A stretch of 39,303 bases of DNA. It comes from a bacterium. Its GTDB lineage: Bacteria; Armatimonadota; JACIXR01. The DNA lies in assembly GCA_014360495.1 (NCBI GenBank), contig JACIXR010000014.1:1-39303 (forward strand), given 5' to 3'. This document shows, one piece after another, positions 15,868 through 39,045 of this stretch. Position 1 is the first letter of the stretch. Every line of letters starts with the position of its first letter. Position numbers and translations under genes: made by a program. The notes beneath the pieces are model-generated. The model was not told the DNA's origin, made no database searches, and was given only the letters and a program-made list of their open reading frames with translations.

Positions 15868-16836
15868 ATGCTTATGGAAAAGCTTAAGAAAACTCTCGGT
15901 ATCACCTTCTTCCTTGCCTTTGCCCCTTTCTCCTACCCATCCCTCACTGGCACATTCCTCCAACTTGACGGTTCCAATCTCCCCTGGCGGGAAGATGAAT
16001 GGAGAAAGGAATTATCCTATATGAAGCAAATAGGAATGGATACCCTGATAATCGCCTCTGTCGCCTTTGACTCTACCTCTTTTTATCCCTCCCGCTTCCT
16101 CTCAGAGTTCCAGCAATCAGGGACAAAGGACCCAATTGAGACCCTCCTCTCACTCTCCGATAAGATGAGGATAGATATCTATCTCGGTCTATATAGCTGG
16201 AATTGGAAGGGGAAAGGAAGCGAGGAGGATTTTGAGAATTTCGCTGAATTTAATAGAAAGGTGGCAAAGGAGCTCTACAGCTTGTATTCCAAACATCCTT
16301 CTTTTAAAGGATGGTATATCTTGAGCTGGGAATTGGGGAATGCGCCTCCGCTGGAGAATGTGGCTGTCAAAGCTTATAAAAAAGTAGTGGATTTCCTCCG
16401 GAAGCTAAATCCGAAGAAGAAAATAATAATCGCTCCCTATTTCACATTGGATATATCTCCAGAGAAAATGGGGGAGGGATGGCGAAAAATTTTGTCCTTC
16501 CTCAAAATAGACATCTTAGCTCTTCAGGATGGAGTGGGATGCGATAGGGGGATAAAGCCTGAGCATATCTCTCCTTATTTTTCCTCTATGAAAAAAGCTT
16601 GTGAGGAGAACAAGGTGGAATTTTGGGGAGATTTGGAGATATTTGATATTCTGGCGGGATGGAAGCCGGCAAATTTGGAGAGAATCAGGGAGCAGATAGA
16701 GAAGATGAAGCCATTCGTCAAGAAGATAGTGGTTTGGGAGTTCAATCACTATATGAGCCCTCTGAAGGGAGAGGAGCAAAGGAAATTATATGAGGAATAT
16801 AAAAATTTCTACCAAAAGGAGGTTAAGAGAAGATGA
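15868..16836 (+). CDS. DUF4434-family glycoside-hydrolase-like protein
   Basis: The protein is 322 aa with a signal peptide (LGITFFLAFAPFSYPSLTG). The mature protein opens with the DUF4434 pattern 'GTFLQLDGSNLPWREDEW' followed by 'MKQIGMDTLIIASVAF'. Later strands fit a TIM barrel: 'DIYLGLYSWNW', 'FKGWYILSWELGN' (a Glu at a position where clan-A-like barrels often keep an acid), 'ILALQDGVG' and 'VVWEFNHYMSP'. DUF4434 proteins are thought to be related to glycoside hydrolases; few have known substrates. ATG (15868) or the ATG two codons later could be the start; the leaderless promoter favours the first. The stop overlaps the next gene's ATG (ATGA), so the two are co-translated. Confidence 0.82.
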   Translation: MLMEKLKKTLGITFFLAFAPFSYPSLTGTFLQLDGSNLPWREDEWRKELSYMKQIGMDTLIIASVAFDSTSFYPSRFLSEFQQSGTKDPIETLLSLSDKMRIDIYLGLYSWNWKGKGSEEDFENFAEFNRKVAKELYSLYSKHPSFKGWYILSWELGNAPPLENVAVKAYKKVVDFLRKLNPKKKIIIAPYFTLDISPEKMGEGWRKILSFLKIDILALQDGVGCDRGIKPEHISPYFSSMKKACEENKVEFWGDLEIFDILAGWKPANLERIREQIEKMKPFVKKIVVWEFNHYMSPLKGEEQRKLYEEYKNFYQKEVKRR

Positions 16837-17585
16837 AGCTTCTGGAAGGGAAAATCGCGTTGATAACGGGAGCAAGCAAGGGAATAGGGAGGGCAATAGC
16901 CCTCGCTATGGCGGATGTGGGAGCGGATATAATCGCAACGGCGAGAACTGAGGAGGAGTTAAAGGAGCTTTGCAAAGAAATAAAAAAGAAGGGAAGGAGG
17001 GCGGAATACATAGTTGCGGATTTGAGGAGCACTGAGGAAGCAAAGGCGATGGCTAAAAGGGCGCTGGAGATATTTGGCAGGGTTGATATATTGGTCAATA
17101 ACGCTGGGGTCAGCTATCCCCAGCCCGCCCTTGAGACGACAGAGGATAGGTGGGACGAGACTTTCCAAATCAATTTGAAGTCGCTCTTCTTCCTCACCCA
17201 AGTTATTGCGAGGGCGATGGTTCAGCAAGGAGGCGGAAAGATAGTCAACATCTCCTCACAGGCGGGATTGGTCGGATTGGAGGACCACGCAGCTTATTGC
17301 GCCACAAAGGGAGGGTTGATACTTTTAACGAAGGTATTGGCTATAGAATGGGGGAAATACAAGATAAATGTGAACGCCGTCGCCCCCACAATCATAATGA
17401 CGCCGATGGCGGAGAGGGCTTGGGCTGATGTCAGGAAGAGAGAAGAGGCATTGAAGAAGATACCTATAGGTAGATTCGGCAAACCAGAGGATGTAGTGGG
17501 AGCAGTCATCTTCTTAGCCTCCCCCTATGCCGACCTAATCACGGGAGCCGTCCTCCCCATAGACGGCGGCTACACTGCTCAATAG
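16833..17585 (+). CDS. short-chain dehydrogenase/reductase (FabG/gluconate-dehydrogenase-like)
   Basis: The protein is 250 aa, a typical classical SDR length. It has the cofactor motif 'TGASKGIGRAIA', 'NNAGVS', the catalytic Ser in 'VNISSQAG', the YxxxK pair in 'YCATKGG' and the C-terminal 'PIDGGYTAQ'. It would reduce or oxidise a hydroxyl group using NAD(P)H. Assignment to 3-oxoacyl-ACP reductase rather than a sugar or sugar-acid dehydrogenase cannot be settled from sequence alone. Its translational coupling (ATGA) to a secreted DUF4434 glycosidase-like gene makes a role in oxidising the released sugar plausible. The gene converges on the HEAT cluster with only 9 bp between the stop codons, so there is no room for a separate terminator. 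Confidence 0.9.
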   Translation: MKLLEGKIALITGASKGIGRAIALAMADVGADIIATARTEEELKELCKEIKKKGRRAEYIVADLRSTEEAKAMAKRALEIFGRVDILVNNAGVSYPQPALETTEDRWDETFQINLKSLFFLTQVIARAMVQQGGGKIVNISSQAGLVGLEDHAAYCATKGGLILLTKVLAIEWGKYKINVNAVAPTIIMTPMAERAWADVRKREEALKKIPIGRFGKPEDVVGAVIFLASPYADLITGAVLPIDGGYTAQ

Positions 17586-17594
17586 CTAAAAACT

Positions 17595-19124
17595 TTATTT
17601 GCCTTTATTCTCTTTCCACCATTGGCGCCATTTGGCGGGGTCTATACCGAAATCCTGCTTCGTTATAGCTCGGAGAGCAGAGGCGGCGCATCCGAGAGCG
17701 GTTCGGTCTTTTTCCTTTTCCAGGAAGCTTATGAGGGGCTCAATTGACGGTCTCCCTATGCTCACCAACCCTGCAACCGCAAACTCCCTTACCATTCTGT
17801 CATCGTCTTTTAAAAAGGAAAGAAGATAGGGGATAGCGTTTATATCCTTTATCCCTTTATCAAATATCTCCGCTATCCCTTCTGAAATCCCTTTGTCCCT
17901 CTTCAATTCCCGAAACAGCACGGGTATCGCCTCCGCTCCCATCCTCCAAAGGGCTTGTCTTGCCTCGTAAGCGATATTTATGTCTTTATCGTTTATATAG
18001 GAAACAAGGACCTCCGCTGAGCGAGAAGAATGTATCTTACCTAAAGCCTTTATCGCGGTGAATCGCAGTCCAGTTTCAACAATATTGAGATATTTGGAGA
18101 TTTCCTCTATGGCTCTCTCGTCCCCGATGTTCCCCAAACTCTCTATGATAACCATCTTTTGCTCTGATGGAGTTTTCTCCTCCTTAAGAAGGGAAAGTAA
18201 TGGCTCTACTGCCTTGCGAGACTTAACCTTTCCCAGCGCCTCAATTAAGTAATATTTAATAGTTTCGTTCTCTTCTGATTTAAGCGCCTCTAATAGGACA
18301 TCCTCTGCCCTTATATCCCCGAGCTCGCCCAGCAAATATATCAGTGTAGTTCTCATATTGTCTTCCTTTCCCCTGCTTTTCAGCATCTCGCAGAGGGGAA
18401 GGACTGCCTCTGGGTCCTTGACGGAAGCAATTCCCATACCAGCTATCATAGAGATAGTTTGCTCCTTATCGGTAAGGGCGAGGAGAAGGGGCTTTACGCC
18501 AAAGAAGCGGTAGCAAATTTTCGCAAGCTTTATTCCCACCCCCGCTTCCTTCATTTCTGGAGGTGGTTCCGTTCCTTCCTCCGTTTTTGATTCCCCATAT
18601 CCGAAGGCGTAGCTTGCCAAGGCTCTTCCTGGGTCTTTGTAAATCTCTGGGTCAACCCACTTTGTATACTCGTAAGGGCTGACCTCCCAAGGTTCAACAT
18701 TTATTTTGACCTGCTCTCTTACCAACTTTCCGCCAACCTCCAAGCTGACTTCCCCTTGCATTCTCGCTCCGGTGTAAAGATATCCTCCCTTCACATAATT
18801 TTTCCCCAGTGCCTTTCCCTCCACTTTTATAGTCAATAGGGCTTCGTAATTTAGCGAATCATCGGGAACGACGGTGACGCCGGCAAAGGAGAAAAGGCGA
18901 GAGGCGACTTCCTTGAAAGGAATATACACTCCTTGAGCAGGTCCCTCGTAGGATTGAAAAACCTGAATTTTAAGGGTCTTAAATTTGGGCAGATTCTCTT
19001 TGTATTGATTTGATTCCTGAACGGATTGAGAAACCTGCGTTTTAGGGCTTTCCAATCCGATGAGATTCTCCTCGCTAAATAAAGAGAAGAAAACAGCGAA
19101 AATCAACAGCAAAATCTTCCTCAT
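17595..19124 (-). CDS. secreted HEAT-repeat protein C (last gene of HEAT cluster)
   Basis: The protein is 509 aa with a signal peptide (KILLLIFAVFFSLFSEENL). Residues about 48-215 form the N-terminal domain shared by the cluster: 'LKIQVFQSYEGPAQGVYIPF', 'YEALLTIKVEGKALGKNY', 'YLYTGARMQGEVSL'. About eight HEAT repeats follow (e.g. 'IRAEDVLLEALKSEENETIK', 'GDERAIEEISKYLNIVETG', 'SRSAEVLVSYINDKDINIAY'). It ends with the cluster's tail 'ITKQDFGIDPAKWRQWWKEN'. HEAT arrays bind other proteins; the target is unknown. The ATG is 6 bp past the stop of gene B with GAGAGAAG as ribosome site, so it is in the same operon. Confidence 0.88.
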   Translation of the reverse strand: MRKILLLIFAVFFSLFSEENLIGLESPKTQVSQSVQESNQYKENLPKFKTLKIQVFQSYEGPAQGVYIPFKEVASRLFSFAGVTVVPDDSLNYEALLTIKVEGKALGKNYVKGGYLYTGARMQGEVSLEVGGKLVREQVKINVEPWEVSPYEYTKWVDPEIYKDPGRALASYAFGYGESKTEEGTEPPPEMKEAGVGIKLAKICYRFFGVKPLLLALTDKEQTISMIAGMGIASVKDPEAVLPLCEMLKSRGKEDNMRTTLIYLLGELGDIRAEDVLLEALKSEENETIKYYLIEALGKVKSRKAVEPLLSLLKEEKTPSEQKMVIIESLGNIGDERAIEEISKYLNIVETGLRFTAIKALGKIHSSRSAEVLVSYINDKDINIAYEARQALWRMGAEAIPVLFRELKRDKGISEGIAEIFDKGIKDINAIPYLLSFLKDDDRMVREFAVAGLVSIGRPSIEPLISFLEKEKDRTALGCAASALRAITKQDFGIDPAKWRQWWKENKGK

Positions 19125-19130
19125 CTTCTC

Positions 19131-22106
19131 TCACTTTAGCTTTAGTAGGTAATCTCTGTTTCTTTCCCACCATATGCGCCATTTCCCCACATCCTCGCCG
19201 TAATCGTTGTGAGCAATCTTCTTCAATGCCCCTCTTGCCGCTTCCCTAACCTCCTTGTTCTCATCAATCATCAATTCAAGCAATTCCTCCACTCCATAGG
19301 GAGACTCAAGATAGCCGAGCGCCTCCGCCGCTGATTTTTTCACCTTGGCATCCTTCTCCTTGAGATAGGGAATTATGACCTCTGAGGCTCTTTTGAGGTC
19401 CGTCCACTTCAAAAATGAAGCGATTTCCTGCCTTCTCAGCGTATCCTGGCAGGAGATGAGGAATTCGGCTAATGGCTTTATGGAATAAGGAGATTTAAGA
19501 TTTTTTAGGAGGGAGAATGCTCGGGAACGAATCCTTGCATCGGGGTCATATTTGTAGGCGTCCACTATTGCGCTTATCGCCACAGGATTGTTCAGCTTCG
19601 CCAAACAATCCAAAGCTGTCTCCCTGTTATCAGGGTCTTCGTCGTTTTTGGAAGTGTAAATCAAATCGTTCACTATGTCCTCCCTAGGACCTATATACAA
19701 AATCGCGTAAAGGGCAGAGCTTCTAATCCTTTTGTTCTCGTTATTCAAAAGAGAGGCTACTTCTTTAAGCAGGGATGGGTCTTTCATCCTGCTGATAAGA
19801 CCTAAGACGCTGTCCATATAGTAAGAAATGGATTCCTCTTCTTCACTTGCTGATTTCTCCATTAATTGCTTCATCAGAGCAAGCAATGGTTTAACAAATC
19901 TCTTATCGCTAAATTCGCTCTTGGTCTTATTCACCCATTCCGCTGTGATTTTCACAGCTTCCTCTTTATCTGCAATTCCTGCTTTTTCATCGTTAAGAAT
20001 TGAGAGAACTACATCAAGAAAGCGAGGGTCATTCTCTTGGGCGAGCCTATAAGCGACGATTAGCCGAATAGTCATATCCTCATCCTGCCCCAGGGGAAGA
20101 AGAAGTTCCTTAGCCCACTGCTCGTTGCTTTCCCTCAACGCCATCGCTATTGCCACTCTTATCCTTGGGTTCTCGTCAGCAAGAGCATCCTTTATCCTCT
20201 CCAAAGCCGGTATCCCAATGCAGACAAGGGCTTTGGCAGCAGAAGAAGGCAAGTCGTAGTAATGATGGATTGTGGGCGGAGTAGTTGTAATAGACACATC
20301 CCAAAAAGCAAATTCTCCCTCTGTTTTATCCTCACTTGGTGGCCTCACAGGGTTCAATTTTAAAGCGAAGTAAAGAGCTTCTATTGCGCGAGTATCCCCG
20401 ATTTTACCTAAGTTAAGAGCTGAAACCGCTCTAAGCCAAAGCGGCTGTTTAACATCGGTGAGGAAGGAAAGAAGAAGGTCAGTGGCTTCCTTCGCCTTCA
20501 AGTTGCCGAGGCATTGGATGGCCGCCTGTCTAATCGTGGGCACATCTTCTTTATCTTTCGCTATTTTGAGACAGGGTTCAATTAGGCGTTTATCTTGGTC
20601 TTTGATAAGCAATAATATGTTGAAAGCGGATTCCCGAACTTCTCTTTTCTCCTTTTTGTTTGTTATTATGGGGATAAGGCTATCTATAACTTTGGAGCCA
20701 GCTGCTACCAAAAGCTTCTCAGTCTCTCCTTTTTCCAGATAATTTTTCTGTTCCACCGCCAAATGCCATCGCTTAATCAGACTGGGTATATCCTCAGTGG
20801 AAAGAGTTGGCAGAGGAACCACCTGAAGAGCTTTCTGAATTGCCTCCATTATCTCAAAGCTCGGACGCTGCTGTAAAACCTCCATAAGAGGGTCGCGTGC
20901 CCTAGGGTCCCCAATCAGCTCTAGTGCCTTAACAGCTGCTACCCTGATTTCCTCTTGCTCCTTTTTATTCTTTAAGACCGCTATGAGTGGCTCAACCGCT
21001 CTTTTATCCTTTAGATTGCCCAGCCATCTCACAGCTGTCATCCTAACATTTGGGCTTTCATCCTTTAAGGCATAAATTAACCCCTCAACCGCTCTATCTC
21101 CGCCCAGCCTTCCCAAAACTTCCGCTGATAAACCTCTTACCCTTGGATTCTCGTGCTTAAGGCAATTGATTACTACCTCAATCCCTCCTCGCTCCTTCAC
21201 TATGTTTGGAATCTCGTCAATTACTTCCCGCCGCGGGATGGCGGGAATCGCGGCATACTCCAACAAGTAGGGGATTGCTTTCGGCAATTTAGTTTTCTCA
21301 AGGGCAATTACGGACCCTATTTGTATCCATTCCCATTTGCTGTTTTTCAATAAGTAAACAAGGGGGTCAAAGAGCTGTTCGCCGAGTTCCTTAAGAAGGG
21401 GGGAAATGGTTTGATAGGGAGCACCAGAGGGCGAAGTGCACTCAAGAATAGCAGCAGCCAGCGCATATCTACCGAAGCACTTGTAATAAATCCTGGCAAA
21501 TTTGTCAATGAAGGAGCCGGGAACATCCAGAACTTTATAGAAAGGAGCGGATTCAGGGCTCTTGTAGGTTTCTATATGCTGTTTTACCTCCATGGGGAGC
21601 TCATCAGGAGGTTCAATATTTCCGGTGAAATTATCCTCTATTTTGAATCCTTCCCTTGTCTCAAGGGAGATTTTCCCCTCAACATAAGCTCCCGTGTAAA
21701 GGACACCTTCAGAATATTTTTTGCTCAACGCCCGGAACGAAGCAGAGATATTAAGGGCTGCTTGGTAATCTGAGGGACCTTCCCCAACGACAATATGTAA
21801 ATTTGGGATGCTGAGGAAAGGCTTTACTATGTTTGAAAAATATAAATAACACTTAGTATTTTCCCATTTGACATTTTCCCATTTCACATCTTCAACGATT
21901 TTAATGATATCCACTTTCTTCAAAGCGAGATGCCACTGCTCTCTGAGACGGATTTTGGTGAGGAATTTATCATAGGCGTCGGGAGGTTGACCTCCTGCAG
22001 GCAGTGGAATGTCCTTTAATTCCCTCTCAATATCTGCTATATCGCCCTTCACCTTTAGGGGGAGAAGAAGGAAGAAAGAGAAGAGGATTGCCCCGATTCT
22101 CTTCAT
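19131..22106 (-). CDS. secreted HEAT-repeat protein B
   Basis: The protein is about 991 aa. The start at 22106 is fixed by AAAGGAGG 8 nt upstream and by the signal peptide that follows (MKRIGAILFSFFLLLPLKVKG); a longer in-frame start would lie inside gene A. The ribosome site is encoded by the last codons of A, and the two genes are 1 bp apart. The N-terminal domain (about 70-230) has 'YQAALNISASFRAL', 'GVLYTGAYVEGKISL' and 'PPDELP'. About 15 or more HEAT repeats follow (e.g. 'GGDRAVEGLIYALKDESPNV', 'DKRAVEPLIAVLKNKK', 'GDTRAIEALYFALK'). The C-terminus has 'IAHNDYGEDVGKWRIWWERN'. The last ~80 residues are encoded by DNA identical to that in B' (see 19164-19403). Confidence 0.9.
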   Translation of the reverse strand: MKRIGAILFSFFLLLPLKVKGDIADIERELKDIPLPAGGQPPDAYDKFLTKIRLREQWHLALKKVDIIKIVEDVKWENVKWENTKCYLYFSNIVKPFLSIPNLHIVVGEGPSDYQAALNISASFRALSKKYSEGVLYTGAYVEGKISLETREGFKIEDNFTGNIEPPDELPMEVKQHIETYKSPESAPFYKVLDVPGSFIDKFARIYYKCFGRYALAAAILECTSPSGAPYQTISPLLKELGEQLFDPLVYLLKNSKWEWIQIGSVIALEKTKLPKAIPYLLEYAAIPAIPRREVIDEIPNIVKERGGIEVVINCLKHENPRVRGLSAEVLGRLGGDRAVEGLIYALKDESPNVRMTAVRWLGNLKDKRAVEPLIAVLKNKKEQEEIRVAAVKALELIGDPRARDPLMEVLQQRPSFEIMEAIQKALQVVPLPTLSTEDIPSLIKRWHLAVEQKNYLEKGETEKLLVAAGSKVIDSLIPIITNKKEKREVRESAFNILLLIKDQDKRLIEPCLKIAKDKEDVPTIRQAAIQCLGNLKAKEATDLLLSFLTDVKQPLWLRAVSALNLGKIGDTRAIEALYFALKLNPVRPPSEDKTEGEFAFWDVSITTTPPTIHHYYDLPSSAAKALVCIGIPALERIKDALADENPRIRVAIAMALRESNEQWAKELLLPLGQDEDMTIRLIVAYRLAQENDPRFLDVVLSILNDEKAGIADKEEAVKITAEWVNKTKSEFSDKRFVKPLLALMKQLMEKSASEEEESISYYMDSVLGLISRMKDPSLLKEVASLLNNENKRIRSSALYAILYIGPREDIVNDLIYTSKNDEDPDNRETALDCLAKLNNPVAISAIVDAYKYDPDARIRSRAFSLLKNLKSPYSIKPLAEFLISCQDTLRRQEIASFLKWTDLKRASEVIIPYLKEKDAKVKKSAAEALGYLESPYGVEELLELMIDENKEVREAARGALKKIAHNDYGEDVGKWRIWWERNRDYLLKLK
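19164..19403 (-). repeat. 240-bp tract identical to 25201-25440 (gene-conversion-like), copy in gene B
   Basis: Reading the two regions side by side gives 240 consecutive identical bases at an offset of 6037. The first differing base at each end is 19163/25200 (T/C) and 19404/25441 (C/A). Flanking sequence is only distantly similar, about half identical at the protein level. The tract encodes the last HEAT repeats and the conserved 'HNDYGEDVGKWRIWWE' tail. Confidence 0.9.
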
Positions 22107-22107
22107 T

Positions 22108-25098
22108 TCATCTACCTCCTTTGAGGAAAAAGCTTTTGTTATTTTCCCACCATTCCCTCCAGAGAGAGACATTGTAGCCGAGGTCTTGATGGGTTAAGCT
22201 TCTCAATGCGTTTAGCAGTTGCCAATCGCCCAATCCCTCGGGGCTTCTTATCAAACCGAGAGAATGAATTTCCTCAAAGAGGGAAAGGATGGGTTCTATC
22301 GCCCTTGGGTCTTGAATCTCAGCAAGAGCGGAGAGCGCGAGACCCTTCTGTTCGTATGATGAATTTTCGCTTTTCAAGACATTTATCAATGGTTCAACTG
22401 CCAAAGGACCGAGGCGGACCAGAGCGTTATAGGCACTTCTGGTTAAATCATAAGCTCTCTCAATGTGTTTCTTCTCCAACTGCTCCAAAATTTGGATGAT
22501 GAGGGGAACAGAGCGTGGGTCCTGAAGTTTTCCCAAGGAGATTATCGCCGCTTCCTTCACTTCTTTATTTCTATCGTTCAAAAGAGGGACAAGAGCATCT
22601 ATAGCCCTTTTGTCGCCGATATCGCCCAACGCCCTCGCCGCTCCCTCTCTTACGATAGCATAGCTATCTTTCAAAGTTTCTATGAGGGCTTCCGTTGCTT
22701 TAAAACTGCCGATTTTCCCAAGCGCTATTGCGGCTGCTCGCCGCACAATAGGATATTCATCATTCAAAAGCTTGAGGAGGATATCAAGGGAAGCGGTGAG
22801 TCCGATTTCCCCCAATCCCTCCGCGCCCAAGCGACGCACCTCGGGGTCGGAACTTTTGCAAAGCTCTTCAAAAAATGGTATCGCCGAGGGCGATTTGTAT
22901 CTTCTCAAGGCGTTCAAGAGTTCAATATCAATCGCACCTGCTCTCTTATTTAATAGGGAGACAAGGTGGGGAATCGCCCTCTCATCCCTCAGCTGGGAGA
23001 GAGCTATGGCAATCGGCTTCTCCAAAGAAGGGTCGTTGTTCATCAGGGATACCAAATCGTCAGCGATTTCCTCTCTCCATACGAGGGCGAGAGTTGAGAT
23101 ACATTTGGTTTTGATGTATTCGTTCACTTTAGGGCTTCTGATAAGGGTGAGCAATTTCTCCTTTATTGATTCGCTCTTCTTCCCCACCAATGAGAAGATT
23201 AAAACCTCTCGGAGGAAATAATCCATATCTCGTTCCAATGCCATTTCCACCACTTCGGGAGGATATTCTGCTCCCATCTCCTCAAAAGCGCGAAGGGCGC
23301 TTATCCTCACTTCGTTCTTCTCTTTATCATCCTTCAAAATGGAAAGCAAAACATCCTTTACCCTTTGGGAGGGAAATTGGCGCAAGGCAAACGCGGCCTG
23401 GCTCCTCACTTCCACATCTTCTCTTTGGTTCTGGGCTATTAGGAGCAAGGGTTCTAATGCCTCTTGGGCTTTAAGGTTGGCGAGGACCTTTATAGCCACG
23501 ATTTTTCGCTCAGGATTATCCCCTTTAAGAACCGCAAGGAGAGAATTGGTTGCTGGCTTTCCAATGTTGTATAAAGCATATTCCACCTGGGCAAGGTAGG
23601 TTGGGTCTGATTCTTCCAAGGAAGCGATGAGGGCATCAACCGCCCTTGCATCCTTAAGCTTCCCCAGTGTTAAAGCTATGCTACCCTTCATAAAGTTAGG
23701 ATACTTTCTTTCATTTAGGAGGGAGATGAGGGCATCCACTGCGGGAGCGCCTAATTTAGAAAAGTATTTGGTTAAATCACTGTAGAATCTCCCTTCTTTG
23801 AAATCTGCAACGAGAAACTCAACTGCACGAGGGTCCCTTGTATTCACCAAAGCTTGCAAAGCTGTTAAGTAAAAGTTGTCAATTTCCCTTTGTTGTTCAC
23901 GGGACTTCCTTGTTAAATCAACCAAGAAATCGGTTGCTTTCTTCCCGCCAATTTCGCCAAGGGATTCTATAGCTCTCCTACGAACATCTTTTCTTTCCCC
24001 CTCATTTTTAGCTATCTCAATCAATATATCCACACTCTCGCTCGCCTTCAGCGCACCCAAGGAGCGAATAGCCGCTATCCTTACATCTGCCGAGGGGTCG
24101 TTAAGCGCTTCCATCAAGGGAGGAATTGCTCTTTCATCACCGATCTCTCCCAAAGAGAAGGCGGCAGATGAACGAATAGATGCATCTTTATCCTTAAGCA
24201 AGGGAATGAGATGTTCAACCGCCTTTTTGTCCTTAGCTATTCCCAACAGAATAACCACATCCATTCGCACCATTTGATCCTCGCTTTTCAGAGCCGATAT
24301 GAGGAGCTCAGCCGCTGAGGGAGCGAATTCGGCGAGGGCGTTGTAGGTGGATTTTCTTACTTTCCAATCTTCATCCGCCAAAGCGGGTATAAGAGCATTT
24401 ATGCCGAGGAATTTCCCCACAGCGATAGCGAATTTATCGGGGAAGGAACCTCTATCAAGGAATGCTTGAAGGAAGGGTGCCTGGTGGGGCTTATAAGGTG
24501 GGTCATAGAAATTGGAGAATTTACCGGGTAGCCAAAGTCCTTCAAAGCTTTCGCTAACCGTTTTCCCATCCTTGCCCCTAAATATTATGCTTCCCCTAAG
24601 CATAGCGCCGGTGTAAAGTATATCAAATTCCTGCTCTGGATTAAGGTTAGACGGTTCTTCTATGGAACGAGGTAAAAGAATTGGTTCCCTTATCCATGGA
24701 TATCCCCAGCCATAAAATTTTGGCCAATATTCTGTTTCGTCGTTCTCCTCTAAACAAAATCCTCTCTTCATCTTCGCTTCTAAATTAGTAAATGGGGTGA
24801 ATAGAAGCTCTCCCCTTTTATCGTAATAACCCCAAAGCGGTTTCCCCTCTACTTTTATCTCCAAAATGGCCTCGTAATCCTCTGCATTCTCTGGCAGAAT
24901 CTCTATATTTGCCCTTTTCAAAAAGCGATAAACCACATCCTTGAAGGGAAGATAAATTTCCTTTGCTTTTCCATAGTCTTGGGAGAGGACAAGCTTAACT
25001 CGTTTTATGTTCACCTCCTCTTGCTGAGCTGAGGCAATGTGCAGAAGCAAAAAGAGGAAAATGAAGTTGCTCAGTATGAGGAAGTTGAATCTTCTCAT
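22108..25098 (-). CDS. secreted HEAT-repeat protein A
   Basis: The protein is 996 aa with a signal peptide (FLILSNFIFLFLLLHIASAQ). Residues about 30-225 are the shared N-terminal domain: 'NIKRVKLVLSQDYGKAKEIY', 'LPFKDVVYRFLKRANIEIL', 'YEAILEIKVEGKPLWGYY', 'ILYTGAMLRGSIIF', then 'APFLQAFLDRGSFPDKFA'. About 20 HEAT repeats follow (e.g. 'DERAIPPLMEALNDPSADVR', 'DKRAIDALVPLLNDRNKEVK', 'ASLDILLKLLNDEYPIVRRA'). It ends 'LTHQDLGYNVSLWREWWENN'. The ATG has GGAGG 9 nt upstream and lies 69 bp after the stop of B'. The gene is the intact paralogue of the broken A' copy at 26740-28088. Confidence 0.9.
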   Translation of the reverse strand: MRRFNFLILSNFIFLFLLLHIASAQQEEVNIKRVKLVLSQDYGKAKEIYLPFKDVVYRFLKRANIEILPENAEDYEAILEIKVEGKPLWGYYDKRGELLFTPFTNLEAKMKRGFCLEENDETEYWPKFYGWGYPWIREPILLPRSIEEPSNLNPEQEFDILYTGAMLRGSIIFRGKDGKTVSESFEGLWLPGKFSNFYDPPYKPHQAPFLQAFLDRGSFPDKFAIAVGKFLGINALIPALADEDWKVRKSTYNALAEFAPSAAELLISALKSEDQMVRMDVVILLGIAKDKKAVEHLIPLLKDKDASIRSSAAFSLGEIGDERAIPPLMEALNDPSADVRIAAIRSLGALKASESVDILIEIAKNEGERKDVRRRAIESLGEIGGKKATDFLVDLTRKSREQQREIDNFYLTALQALVNTRDPRAVEFLVADFKEGRFYSDLTKYFSKLGAPAVDALISLLNERKYPNFMKGSIALTLGKLKDARAVDALIASLEESDPTYLAQVEYALYNIGKPATNSLLAVLKGDNPERKIVAIKVLANLKAQEALEPLLLIAQNQREDVEVRSQAAFALRQFPSQRVKDVLLSILKDDKEKNEVRISALRAFEEMGAEYPPEVVEMALERDMDYFLREVLIFSLVGKKSESIKEKLLTLIRSPKVNEYIKTKCISTLALVWREEIADDLVSLMNNDPSLEKPIAIALSQLRDERAIPHLVSLLNKRAGAIDIELLNALRRYKSPSAIPFFEELCKSSDPEVRRLGAEGLGEIGLTASLDILLKLLNDEYPIVRRAAAIALGKIGSFKATEALIETLKDSYAIVREGAARALGDIGDKRAIDALVPLLNDRNKEVKEAAIISLGKLQDPRSVPLIIQILEQLEKKHIERAYDLTRSAYNALVRLGPLAVEPLINVLKSENSSYEQKGLALSALAEIQDPRAIEPILSLFEEIHSLGLIRSPEGLGDWQLLNALRSLTHQDLGYNVSLWREWWENNKSFFLKGGR

Positions 25099-25167
25099 TC
25101 CTCTCTGCCTCCTTCTGGGCTTCCTCCTATTAATTAGACGCCTTTAAGTATTGATTTGTTTCCCCTC

Positions 25168-26245
25168 TTACTTCAGCTTTAGGAGAAAATCTCTGCTGTC
25201 TTCCCACCATATGCGCCATTTCCCCACATCCTCGCCGTAATCGTTGTGAGCAATCTTCTTCAATGCCCCTCTTGCCGCTTCCCTAACCTCCTTGTTCTCA
25301 TCAATCATCAATTCAAGCAATTCCTCCACTCCATAGGGAGACTCAAGATAGCCGAGCGCCTCCGCCGCTGATTTTTTCACCTTGGCATCCTTCTCCTTGA
25401 GATAGGGAATTATGACCTCTGAGGCTCTTTTGAGGTCCGTAATTTTCAAAGCCCAAGCAATTTTCTTTATTAAGTGTTCATCCTTACAACTCATTAGGAA
25501 TTTAGCAAGATTCTCTACAGCATAGGGAGAGCGTAAGTTAACCAATATCTCGGCAGCTTCCATTCGCACTCCGTCATCGGGGTCGTATTTAACCGCATCT
25601 ACTATAGCGTTAACCGCTTCTGCATTATTTACTTTGCTTAAATACTTCAAGGCGATTATTCTTAAAGATGAACTTTCGTCGTTTTTGGTAACATATATCA
25701 AATCATTGACGACCTCTTTGAGAGCACCGATTTCAAAGAGGGAGTGGAGCGCTCTTCTTCTTATGTTCTCGTCTCTGTTATATAATTGATGAGCGATGAA
25801 TTTAACTGCTGAAGGGTCCCCTGTTTCTCCTAATAGACCCAAGAGGTCATCGGTGTAGAGCTTTTCTTCTCTCCTCTCTTCCTCTTTCAAAAGCTCTATC
25901 AGTGGCTCAACAAATCTCTTATCCTTGAATTTCGCCTTGCTTTTCTCCTTCCATGTGTAGATTAGAAGAATCGCTTCTCTTTTTTGCCAGTGATTTACCT
26001 CTTTGTCTTTGAGGATGGAGATAACGATATCAAAGGCTTGTGGGTCTTCATATCCTATTAATGCACGAGCAACAGCTAACTTGACTACTAAGTTTGTGTC
26101 GTTTTTTAAAGAAAGCAGAAGCTCTTTCATAGCTTCGTCCTTTTTCCAAGCCAATGCGTTAACCATAGCCTGCCTACCATCGGGGTCATCATCGGATAGT
26201 GCATTCTTGATTCTGTCCAAAGCTGGCTGAATAATTTCAAAAAGA
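25168..26245 (-). pseudogene. B': C-terminal remnant of a second HEAT protein B
   Basis: An open frame of about 350 codons aligns with residues of about 670 to the end of protein B ('LDRIKNALSDDDPDGRQAMV' against 'LERIKDALADENPRIRVAIA'; 'DKRFVEPLIELLKEEE' against 'DKRFVKPLLALMKQLME'). It ends in the same 'GEDVGKWRIWWE' tail. There is no signal peptide, N-terminal domain or first two-thirds of the repeats. Homology fades just upstream of 26230, where IS-remnant sequence begins. Any translation from the internal Met near 26220 would give a cytoplasmic HEAT fragment. The frame itself is undamaged, so the truncation could be recent or the fragment could be kept by gene conversion with B. Confidence 0.8.
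25201..25440 (-). repeat. 240-bp tract identical to 19164-19403 (gene-conversion-like), copy in B'
   Basis: This is the second copy of the perfectly identical 240-bp tract. Both edges are abrupt, and the flanks in B' and B have diverged strongly, so recent duplication of the whole gene cannot explain it. Confidence 0.9.
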
Positions 26246-26279
26246 TATTGTAATATATAGATAAGAGGAGAGATTTGAA

Positions 26280-26745
26280 AGGGGAAGATATAGTTAAGTT
26301 AAAGATATACAAAGACTCAGGTTATAACCCCGCAGCGCTTTGACCTCTCTCAAGAAGACCTAAAAATCCAAGAAAAAGAAACTGGGATATAAGAGTGATA
26401 GAATAGATGTTGTCTCAAGATTTGGTTTCTCTTACGCTTTCCCGAGATTATCAAGCAGGAGCGCGAGGGAATTTATGGAGAAACTCTTGGAGGTATCCAC
26501 CTTCGCTGTGAGGTGTGTTCAAACGGATAACGGGAGCGAGTTCGCGGGAGAATTTGAAGATTTTCTCAGGAATAAGGGTATTATCCATTTCTACACCCAT
26601 CCAAAGAGACCGCAAGAGAACGGTTATGTGGAGTGATTCCAGAGAACTATCCAAGAATATTTCATAGATGTATACCCGCTGGAGTCAACGGATATATGCG
26701 AATTTAATAACCAAAGGAGTCCCAAATGTTATGGAATTATACACA
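26280..26745 (+). mobile_element. remnant of an IS481-type insertion sequence (transposase pseudogene with right end)
   Basis: On the plus strand, about 26380-26720 reads as a degraded integrase-core transposase: 'IDVVSRFGFSYAFPRLSS', 'VQTDNGSEFAGEFEDFLRN', 'HFYTHPKRPQENGYVE', then a TGA stop and 'FQRTIQEYFIDVYPLESTD'. The Asp of QTDNGSEF and the Glu of QENGYVE are the second and third DDE residues. An upstream piece in another frame ('YNPAAL', stop, 'PLSRRPKNPRK') resembles the region before the catalytic core. The first catalytic Asp region and the left end are not recognisable. The right end is GTTATGGAATTATACACA at 26728-26745, the reverse complement of a TGT-starting inverted repeat, with a partner at 32890. 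It separates the A' and B' HEAT fragments. Confidence 0.78.
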
Positions 26746-28088
26746 ATCTTGACAAGTGCCCATCCCACATATTGAGAAAAGCTATATGCATTCTCCCTTA
26801 AAGACGAAATCAGTGCGTTCACAACTCTTGGCCCCCTAAGCTCTTCTAGAGCATAAGCTATGTATTTTCTATTGTCCGCTCGCACAGTAGCATCATTTAA
26901 AAGTTCTATTAGGGTTTCTAAGGCAGGGGTCCCGATTTTAGAGAGAGCTAACGCCACTCTTTCGTCTCCATGTGTATCTCGCCATGCTTCCTTAAGGTAT
27001 TTCACAGCCTTGCTTTCCCTTGCGTTAGCCAAACCAAATAGCGCGTGTAAGTAGAGAGAATCCCATAGGCTCTCTTTGCTGGGAGAATCTTTCGTTAATT
27101 CCCAAAGGGTTTGAACCGCCTTTTTGCCACCTATTTCACCGAGAGCAATTACTGCAGATTTACGAATATCATCGCTTATCTCAGTGTTTAACGCAATCCT
27201 TGCTAAATCGTCAACCGCTTCCTTTGCCTTAAGCCTTCCCAAAGAGCGAGCTGCATACTCCTTTAAACCGCTATCTGCCAAAGCTTTGATTAGATAGGGA
27301 ATTGCCCTTTTATCATTTAGCCACCCTAACAATTCCACTACGTTCTTTCTGACAAGTTTGTTAGGATTATTTAAGGCTTTGATTAAGCAGTCCAGAGCCC
27401 CTTTCCCGAATTCCCCAATAGCTCTTTTGGCGACTTCGTCAAGTTCCCATGTCATCTCACCTGAAGCTGGTATAAGGACCTCAACCCCGAAGAATTTCCC
27501 AACGAATTTCGCCAAATTATCGGGGAAGGAACCTTTTTCTAAAAAGGCAAACAGAAACGGCGCCTTCTCCGGCGTATAGGGAGGGTCCTTGTCTAAATCC
27601 CACCAAGATAAATATTCAGGAGGTGCTATATAGCCTTGAAATTTCTCCTTAACAATTTTCCCATTCTTTCCCTTTAAACTTATCTCTCCACTTAGCATAG
27701 CCCCTGCATAAAGGAGATTGATGGGTTCAAATGGTTTCACGGCGGGATTGAAGACCTCAGGAGGCGACCAAGGTGTCGGCATCTTTTTAATCTCTACATT
27801 AGCCCTTATTTCTACCGCGCTTTCCTCTTCTTCAAAATACACCCTAACCCTTGGAATCTCCTCTTTTTTAAAAGGAGTGAACAATAGCAAATCGCCCCTA
27901 TAGTAGCCCCATAGGGGCTTGCCTTGGACATTTATTTCCAGAACCGCATCGCAATCAACGGAATTGTCAAGCCCAACTTCCGCGTTGGCGTTCTTCAAAA
28001 ATGGTAGGAGATATCATAAAATGGAAGAGGAATTGCCCACACCTTTTCCACGCTTTGGTTGACAACTAATCGCACTCTTTTAATTGAT
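26746..28088 (-). pseudogene. A': N-terminal remnant of a second HEAT protein A, frameshifted and truncated
   Basis: The frame below 27998 matches the N-terminal part of protein A: 'DAVLEINVQGKPLWGYYRGD', 'LLYAGAMLSGEISL', 'APFLFAFLEKGSFPDNLAKF', then about five HEAT repeats ending in 'VGWALVKI' at the IS end (26745). Upstream the homology continues in another frame as 'SIKRVRLVVNQSVEKVWAIP', 'LPFYDISYHF', then TGA. A single missing T in the T-run (plus-strand A-run 27997-28001, five instead of six) causes the shift; restoring it gives 'YHFLKNANAEVGL', as in A. A further in-frame stop precedes 'SIKRV', and no signal peptide is recognisable. The C-terminal half of the gene is lost. Confidence 0.8.
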
Positions 28089-28126: not shown

Positions 28127-29110
28127 TCAAACTATTCCGACCTTCACCAGGTCAACGATATCTATCATCCCCAAGGCATGTCCTTCTTCATCAACAACTG
28201 GCAAATCGTCTATATTCCTCTCCTGCATCAATCTTAAAGCCTCTGCTGCAAGCTTTCCTCTCTGAATCGTTATGGGCGTTTCAGTCATAATTTCTCTTGC
28301 GGGCTTGTTCAGGACTGTCTCGTCAAGAATGAGGTGGCGTCTTATATCGCCGTCCGTGATTATGCCAACCAATTTGTTCTCCTTATCTACAACGCTAGCC
28401 GCTCCTCCCCTTGCCTTCGTGATTGTGAAGAGGACATCCCTAACGGGAGTTTCCTCCTCAACAACAGCGTGGCGCTTTCCCGTTCTCATTACATCCTCCA
28501 CTTTCAAGAGCAATCTCCTGCCGATTGTTCCGCCCGGATGAAGCCTTGCAAGGTCATCTCTTGTTATTCTTCTCAAACTCATAATCGCTATGGCGAGGGC
28601 ATCTCCCATAGCCATAGTCGCGGTTGTGGATGAGGTGGGGGCGATACCGAAGGGACAGGCTTCCCTCTCAACGCTCACATCTATCACTATATCGGAGGCT
28701 TTCGCGATGCTTGAATTCGGGTTTCCCGTGAGAGCTATCAGCTTTATTCCCAAGCGTTTTAAGAAGGGGATGATATTTATCAGTTCTTCCGTCTCCCCGT
28801 TATAGGAGATGAGGATGATGATGTCATCGGAGGAAAGTAGCCCAAGCTCGCCATGCATTGCCTCAGCGGGATGAAGGAAGACGGAGGGAGTTCCCGTTGA
28901 GGCAAAAGTGCTTGCTATCTTCCTTCCCACTGCTCCCGACTTCCCAATCCCCGTGATAACCACCTTGCCCTTACAAGAAAGGATTTCCTCAACTGCCTCA
29001 TATACAGCTTCGTTTATCTTTTCCCTTAGCCCTAGAACCGCTTCCCCCTCTATTTTAAGGACTTCCCATATTATTTGCTTTATCTTCTCCTTATCCAGTT
29101 CTTCCGTCAT
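28127..29110 (-). CDS. kdsD: arabinose-5-phosphate isomerase, KpsF/GutQ family
   Basis: The protein is 327 aa, the usual length. It has an N-terminal SIS domain (about 35-175: 'VVITGIGKSGAVGRKIASTF', 'HGELGLLSSDDIIILISYNG', 'PTSSTTATMAMGDALAIAIM') followed by two CBS domains (about 207-262 and 275-327). KdsD interconverts ribulose-5-phosphate and arabinose-5-phosphate, the first step to KDO of lipopolysaccharide core, so the cell probably has an LPS-like outer membrane. The start overlaps the flavodoxin stop (ATGA). The assignment to KdsD rather than another sugar isomerase of the family is by general likeness. Confidence 0.92.
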   Translation of the reverse strand: MTEELDKEKIKQIIWEVLKIEGEAVLGLREKINEAVYEAVEEILSCKGKVVITGIGKSGAVGRKIASTFASTGTPSVFLHPAEAMHGELGLLSSDDIIILISYNGETEELINIIPFLKRLGIKLIALTGNPNSSIAKASDIVIDVSVEREACPFGIAPTSSTTATMAMGDALAIAIMSLRRITRDDLARLHPGGTIGRRLLLKVEDVMRTGKRHAVVEEETPVRDVLFTITKARGGAASVVDKENKLVGIITDGDIRRHLILDETVLNKPAREIMTETPITIQRGKLAAEALRLMQERNIDDLPVVDEEGHALGMIDIVDLVKVGIV

Positions 29111-38934: not shown

Positions 38935-39045
38935 CCCGCCTTCGGCGGGTTCGCGATGAAAATCCCTCTCTGTCATTGCGAGGAGCGAAGCGACGAAGCA
39001 ATCTCTTTGAGATTGCCACGGGCTCCCAGAAGGGAGCCCTTACAG
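38935..39045 (+). repeat. composite REP-like element with two hairpins
   Basis: The element starts with CCCGCCTTCGGCGGG (38935-38949, 6-bp stem), then TCGCGATGAAAATCCCTCTC, then TGTCATTGCGAGGAGCGAAG and CGACGAAGCAATCTC, then GAGATTGCCACGG. It ends with the 8-bp stem GGGCTCCC/GGGAGCCC around AGAA (39020-39039). Parts recur at 6451, 15475, 15671 and 37418. No U-tract follows either hairpin, so it is a repeat first and a terminator only possibly. The region 38912-39303 contains no convincing gene. Confidence 0.6.

Follow-up and report, generated by a model that had tools for sequence, protein, structure and literature searches.

A cluster of HEAT-repeat genes occupies the minus strand in the middle of the window, which is the complete contig C14 (39,303 bp) of an assembly of 18 contigs and 2.55 Mb. 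In the reading direction the genes follow one another in the order C', B', C, B, A, and all five match HEAT-repeat families (Pfam HEAT_2 and HEAT_PBS) (Table 1). The ATG start of gene B, at 22106, is preceded by an AGGAGG-like ribosome site. The N-terminus of the B protein is hydrophobic and, judged by eye, signal-peptide-like. A sequence search of the PDB matched B to designed alphaRep and MTH187 chains. The cluster thus resembles HEAT/PBS-lyase-type repeat proteins and the designed alphaRep proteins in its family matches, but B differs from them: its N-terminal region has no Pfam match, and among 291 genomes of the phylum only one other proved to contain a strong relative of B. A, B and C (17595-25098) share a similar terminal motif, D-x-G-x-D/N-x-x-x-W-R-x-W-W. 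At the ends of the contig, bases 1-41 are 98% identical to the final 41 of contig C1, so that C1 may be the neighbouring contig or a repeat may lie at the break; 30 bases at 39009-39039 recur with ~91-94% identity on C1, C2, C4, C8 and C15 and are a small dispersed repeat.

Table 1. Features of the HEAT cluster, its flanking genes and the identical tracts (positions in the window)
Feature	Position	Strand	Evidence and remarks
Short-chain dehydrogenase (SDR), syntenic anchor downstream of A	16833..17585	+	Same neighbour in G002
Gene A, HEAT-repeat protein, 509 aa	17595..19124	-	ORF; Pfam HEAT; G002 ortholog 47%
Gene B, HEAT-repeat protein, ~991 aa	19131..22106	-	ORF; HEAT_2/HEAT_PBS; G002 ortholog 42%
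Tract in gene B	19164..19403	-	Codes ...TDLKRASEVIIPYLK to GEDVGKWRIWWE; exact match to 25201-25440; 75/75 synonymous codons
Gene C, HEAT-repeat protein, 996 aa	22108..25098	-	ORF; Pfam HEAT; G002 ortholog 41%
B', open 3' part of B paralog (B residues 655-1013)	25168..26226	-	tblastn, blastp
Tract in B'	25201..25440	-	Exact match to 19164-19403; 75/75 synonymous codons
Decayed transposable-element remnant	26227..26743	+	rve_3 integrase-core fragment with TGA; between C' and B'
C', truncated C paralog (residues 30-512)	26745..28087	-	tblastn, two frames; frameshift near residue 59
SIS/CBS-domain sugar-phosphate isomerase, upstream syntenic anchor	28127..29110	-	Same neighbour in G002

A probable old duplication and its decay

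Comparison with a genome of the same genus (G002), in which the orthologs of A, B and C lie on one contig (G002:C89), provided insights into the history of the locus. G002 has single copies of C and B in the order SIS-C-B-A-SDR, with SDR on the other strand. The window has the same flanking genes in the order SIS-C'-B'-C-B-A-SDR, with C'-B' inserted between SIS and C. The synteny is most readily explained if C'-B' arose by an old tandem duplication of C-B. Outside the tract described below, protein identity is 44% between B and B' and 42% between C and C'; against the G002 orthologs it is 35-37% for B or B', 43% for C and 35% for C'. These similar values suggest that the duplication is about as old as the species split. 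The C ortholog in G002 (L027:9048-12065) is itself split by a single in-frame TAA into ORFs of 409 and 595 aa; the gene may be damaged, the stop may be a sequencing error, or two separate proteins may be encoded.

Homology of C' to C ends at residue 512 and homology of B' to B begins at residue 655. The 26227-26743 segment, which abuts the two homologies on both sides, matches a multi-copy decayed element of the same genome with 84-98% identity. This exact junction is as expected if the element inserted and the missing parts of C' and B' were deleted. The sequence-only reading had called B' a truncated neighbour, and B' does lack the N-terminal two thirds of the protein (B residues 1-654), lost at the transposon remnant, and has no obvious start. 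Further copies of the element are found on C1, C2, C5, C8 and other contigs (L040-L045); internal gaps distinguish them, and none of the copies examined contained a complete transposase.

The two duplicates have aged differently. C' carries 69 unique changes against 34 in C (p 0.0006) and has evolved faster, whereas B' carries 24 before the tract against 28 in B (p 0.58), the same rate. The absence of excess changes in B' suggests that it was probably constrained until lately.

An identical tract between diverged paralogs

Direct comparison of the tracts in B and B' gave identity at 240/240 positions with a constant offset of 6037. Identity breaks off at 19163 and 19404, the first mismatched positions at either end, and the length is exactly 240 bp, as the sequence-only reading had stated. 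A search of the whole 2.55 Mb assembly found only these two copies. The terminal motif shared by A, B and C sits at the end of the tract in B and B'. The tract covers 79 complete codons and was described as the C-terminal tail; it does lie there, but as the last part of a longer homologous region (B residues 655-1013).

Synonymous identity changes abruptly along the B/B' alignment, as a conversion tract would predict. Over the 260 comparable codons before the tract, 114 residues (44%) and 405/780 bases (52%) are identical, as are 45/113 synonymous-comparable codons and 12/40 four-fold sites. The synonymous sites of B and B' outside the tract are near saturation. Inside the tract every position agrees: 79/79 residues, 237/237 bases, 75/75 synonymous-comparable codons and 31/31 four-fold sites. 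In the 11 codons after the tract, 8 residues and 25/33 bases are the same. The surroundings had been described as roughly half identical in protein; the value is 44% upstream and higher in this short downstream end. The edges had been called sharp; the 3' edge is softer than the 5' edge. Across the homologous alignment as a whole, 672/1056 positions are identical. The longest identical run in 20,000 shuffles of these aligned sites was 35, and the observed run of 240 is far beyond chance.

The G002 ortholog of B shows what is conserved in this part of the gene. The tract region is its best-conserved part, with 48/79 residues the same, compared with 91/258 before the tract. The silent sites are not preserved: synonymous codons are the same in 16/45 cases and different in 29/45, as elsewhere in the gene. 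Since the tract bases differ at silent sites in the ortholog, the identity of B and B' requires a recent transfer. Selection on the DNA or RNA itself (an embedded signal or an antisense RNA), keeping the 240 bp identical with no transfer, could draw on the conservation of the protein there, but those silent-site differences, together with the lack of any DNA match to the tract in 40 relatives and of any Rfam family in the region, rule it out as a DNA-level constraint and leave it a negligible probability.

Origin of the tract

The near-saturated divergence outside, the absence of any difference inside and the diverged ortholog together uphold the earlier proposal of a recent transfer between the copies. 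We consider it very likely that an old tandem duplication of C-B was followed by transposon-associated decay and by a recent one-way copying of 240 bp between the 3' ends of B and B', that is, ectopic gene conversion. In this scheme, an ancient tandem duplication of the C-B pair would have produced C'-B'-C-B-A, and the copies would have diverged until their synonymous sites were nearly saturated. A later transposon insertion with deletion would have fused the 5' part of C' to the 3' part of B', C' also being frameshifted. Homologous recombination between the 3' ends, which lie on the same strand ~6 kb apart, would recently have copied the 240 bp from one to the other without crossover, before or after the truncation. 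Each tract is still bordered on either side by the diverged sequence of its own copy, the reading frames are intact, and the C-B-A order is as in G002; the retained flanks and frame indicate that the transfer was non-reciprocal. The GC content of the tract is 0.50, compared with 0.448 for B and 0.404 for B', and composition does not decide which copy was the donor.

Bacterial gene conversion is RecA-dependent, proceeds with or without crossover and drops sharply as homology falls (PMC8022953). The route that we infer as likeliest is RecA-type strand invasion in the C-terminal region, where the gene is best conserved. If recombination began within that conserved tail, at a short run of identical bases, and stopped where homology fails, both the position and the edges of the tract would be explained. 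Against conversion, flanks with 52% DNA identity are a poor substrate. With no difference in 75 synonymous-comparable codons, the rule of three bounds the age of the event at roughly <~4% synonymous divergence (95%), and the event need not be very recent.

It was also proposed that the truncated neighbour keeps exchanging sequence with B. What we find is a single clear event; any indication of an older one is weak at best and lies in the last 11 codons, where the 25/33 identical nucleotides exceed the 52% background with p ~0.004 (uncorrected). This raised identity could be a faded older exchange, or chance. That the decaying B' still repeatedly exchanges its C-terminal end with B, the last 11 codons being the trace of an earlier exchange, appears unlikely to us. 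Were such recurrent exchange real, a remnant gene would be acting locally on a functional HEAT solenoid, reshaping or buffering its end.

An assembly artefact, in which one copy of the tail was mis-filled from the other or collapsed onto it, is quite improbable. Contig C8 begins (C8:1) inside the repeated element, which suggests short reads and lends this explanation some substance. Each copy nevertheless has its own diverged flanks on both sides and stays in frame, and the C-B-A order agrees with G002. With flanks only 52% alike, these features make a wrong fill of the tract unlikely, and even if two slightly different copies had been collapsed, a recent conversion would have to be assumed.

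The sequence-only reading further compared B' with the silent cassettes of some surface-protein systems, that is, with a reservoir that repeatedly rewrites B to vary a surface protein. B' is truncated, lacks an obvious start, lies close to B and has exchanged sequence with it at least once, and identity in the last 11 codons is somewhat above background. Nevertheless, the genome as a whole holds one partial copy and no array of donors. The exchanged segment, instead of being variable between the copies, is the part most conserved against the ortholog, and the event made the copies identical, so that variation was removed, not added. A second tract is also absent: C and C' share none (longest identical run 18 bp), and none was found across the HEAT cluster. 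The idea of a variation reservoir finds no support in these comparisons and is very improbable here.

Relation to known systems and significance

Ectopic gene conversion between bacterial paralogs is known, for example between tufA and tufB (Santoyo and Romero 2005; Morris and Drouin 2007, as cited in PMC8022953 and PMC6053082). As in conversion of the tufA/tufB type, a one-way transfer has left two copies in one genome with a stretch in which silent and coding sites alike are identical. The tuf genes are 98.9% identical (PMC8022953), whereas the flanks here are far more diverged (52% DNA identity), the tract is single and short, and one partner is truncated. The sharp patch of silent-site identity, the lack of constraint in the ortholog and the flanks kept at both loci are those of ectopic gene conversion. 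The vls system of Borrelia burgdorferi B31 comprises 15 silent cassettes that share ~90% identity with the expression site and differ from it mainly in variable regions (PMC11499132). Our locus shares with vls of the Lyme Borrelia a segmental conversion involving a complete gene and a nearby partial copy. Unlike vls, it has no cassette array and no variable regions in the exchanged part, and it shows no sign of repeated switching.

The tract is real, and well supported as the mark of a single conversion in which an intact gene and its decaying tandem paralog took part, a new example of a known process. We found nothing relevant in the literature on gene conversion in bacterial HEAT genes. The tract reveals no new mechanism and reflects an ordinary gene-conversion event. 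It offers a clean instance of short-tract conversion in paralogs with flanks too divergent for efficient recombination, and it lands on the best-conserved segment of the protein. A phylogeny inferred from gene ends of this kind would mistakenly place the duplication in the recent past.
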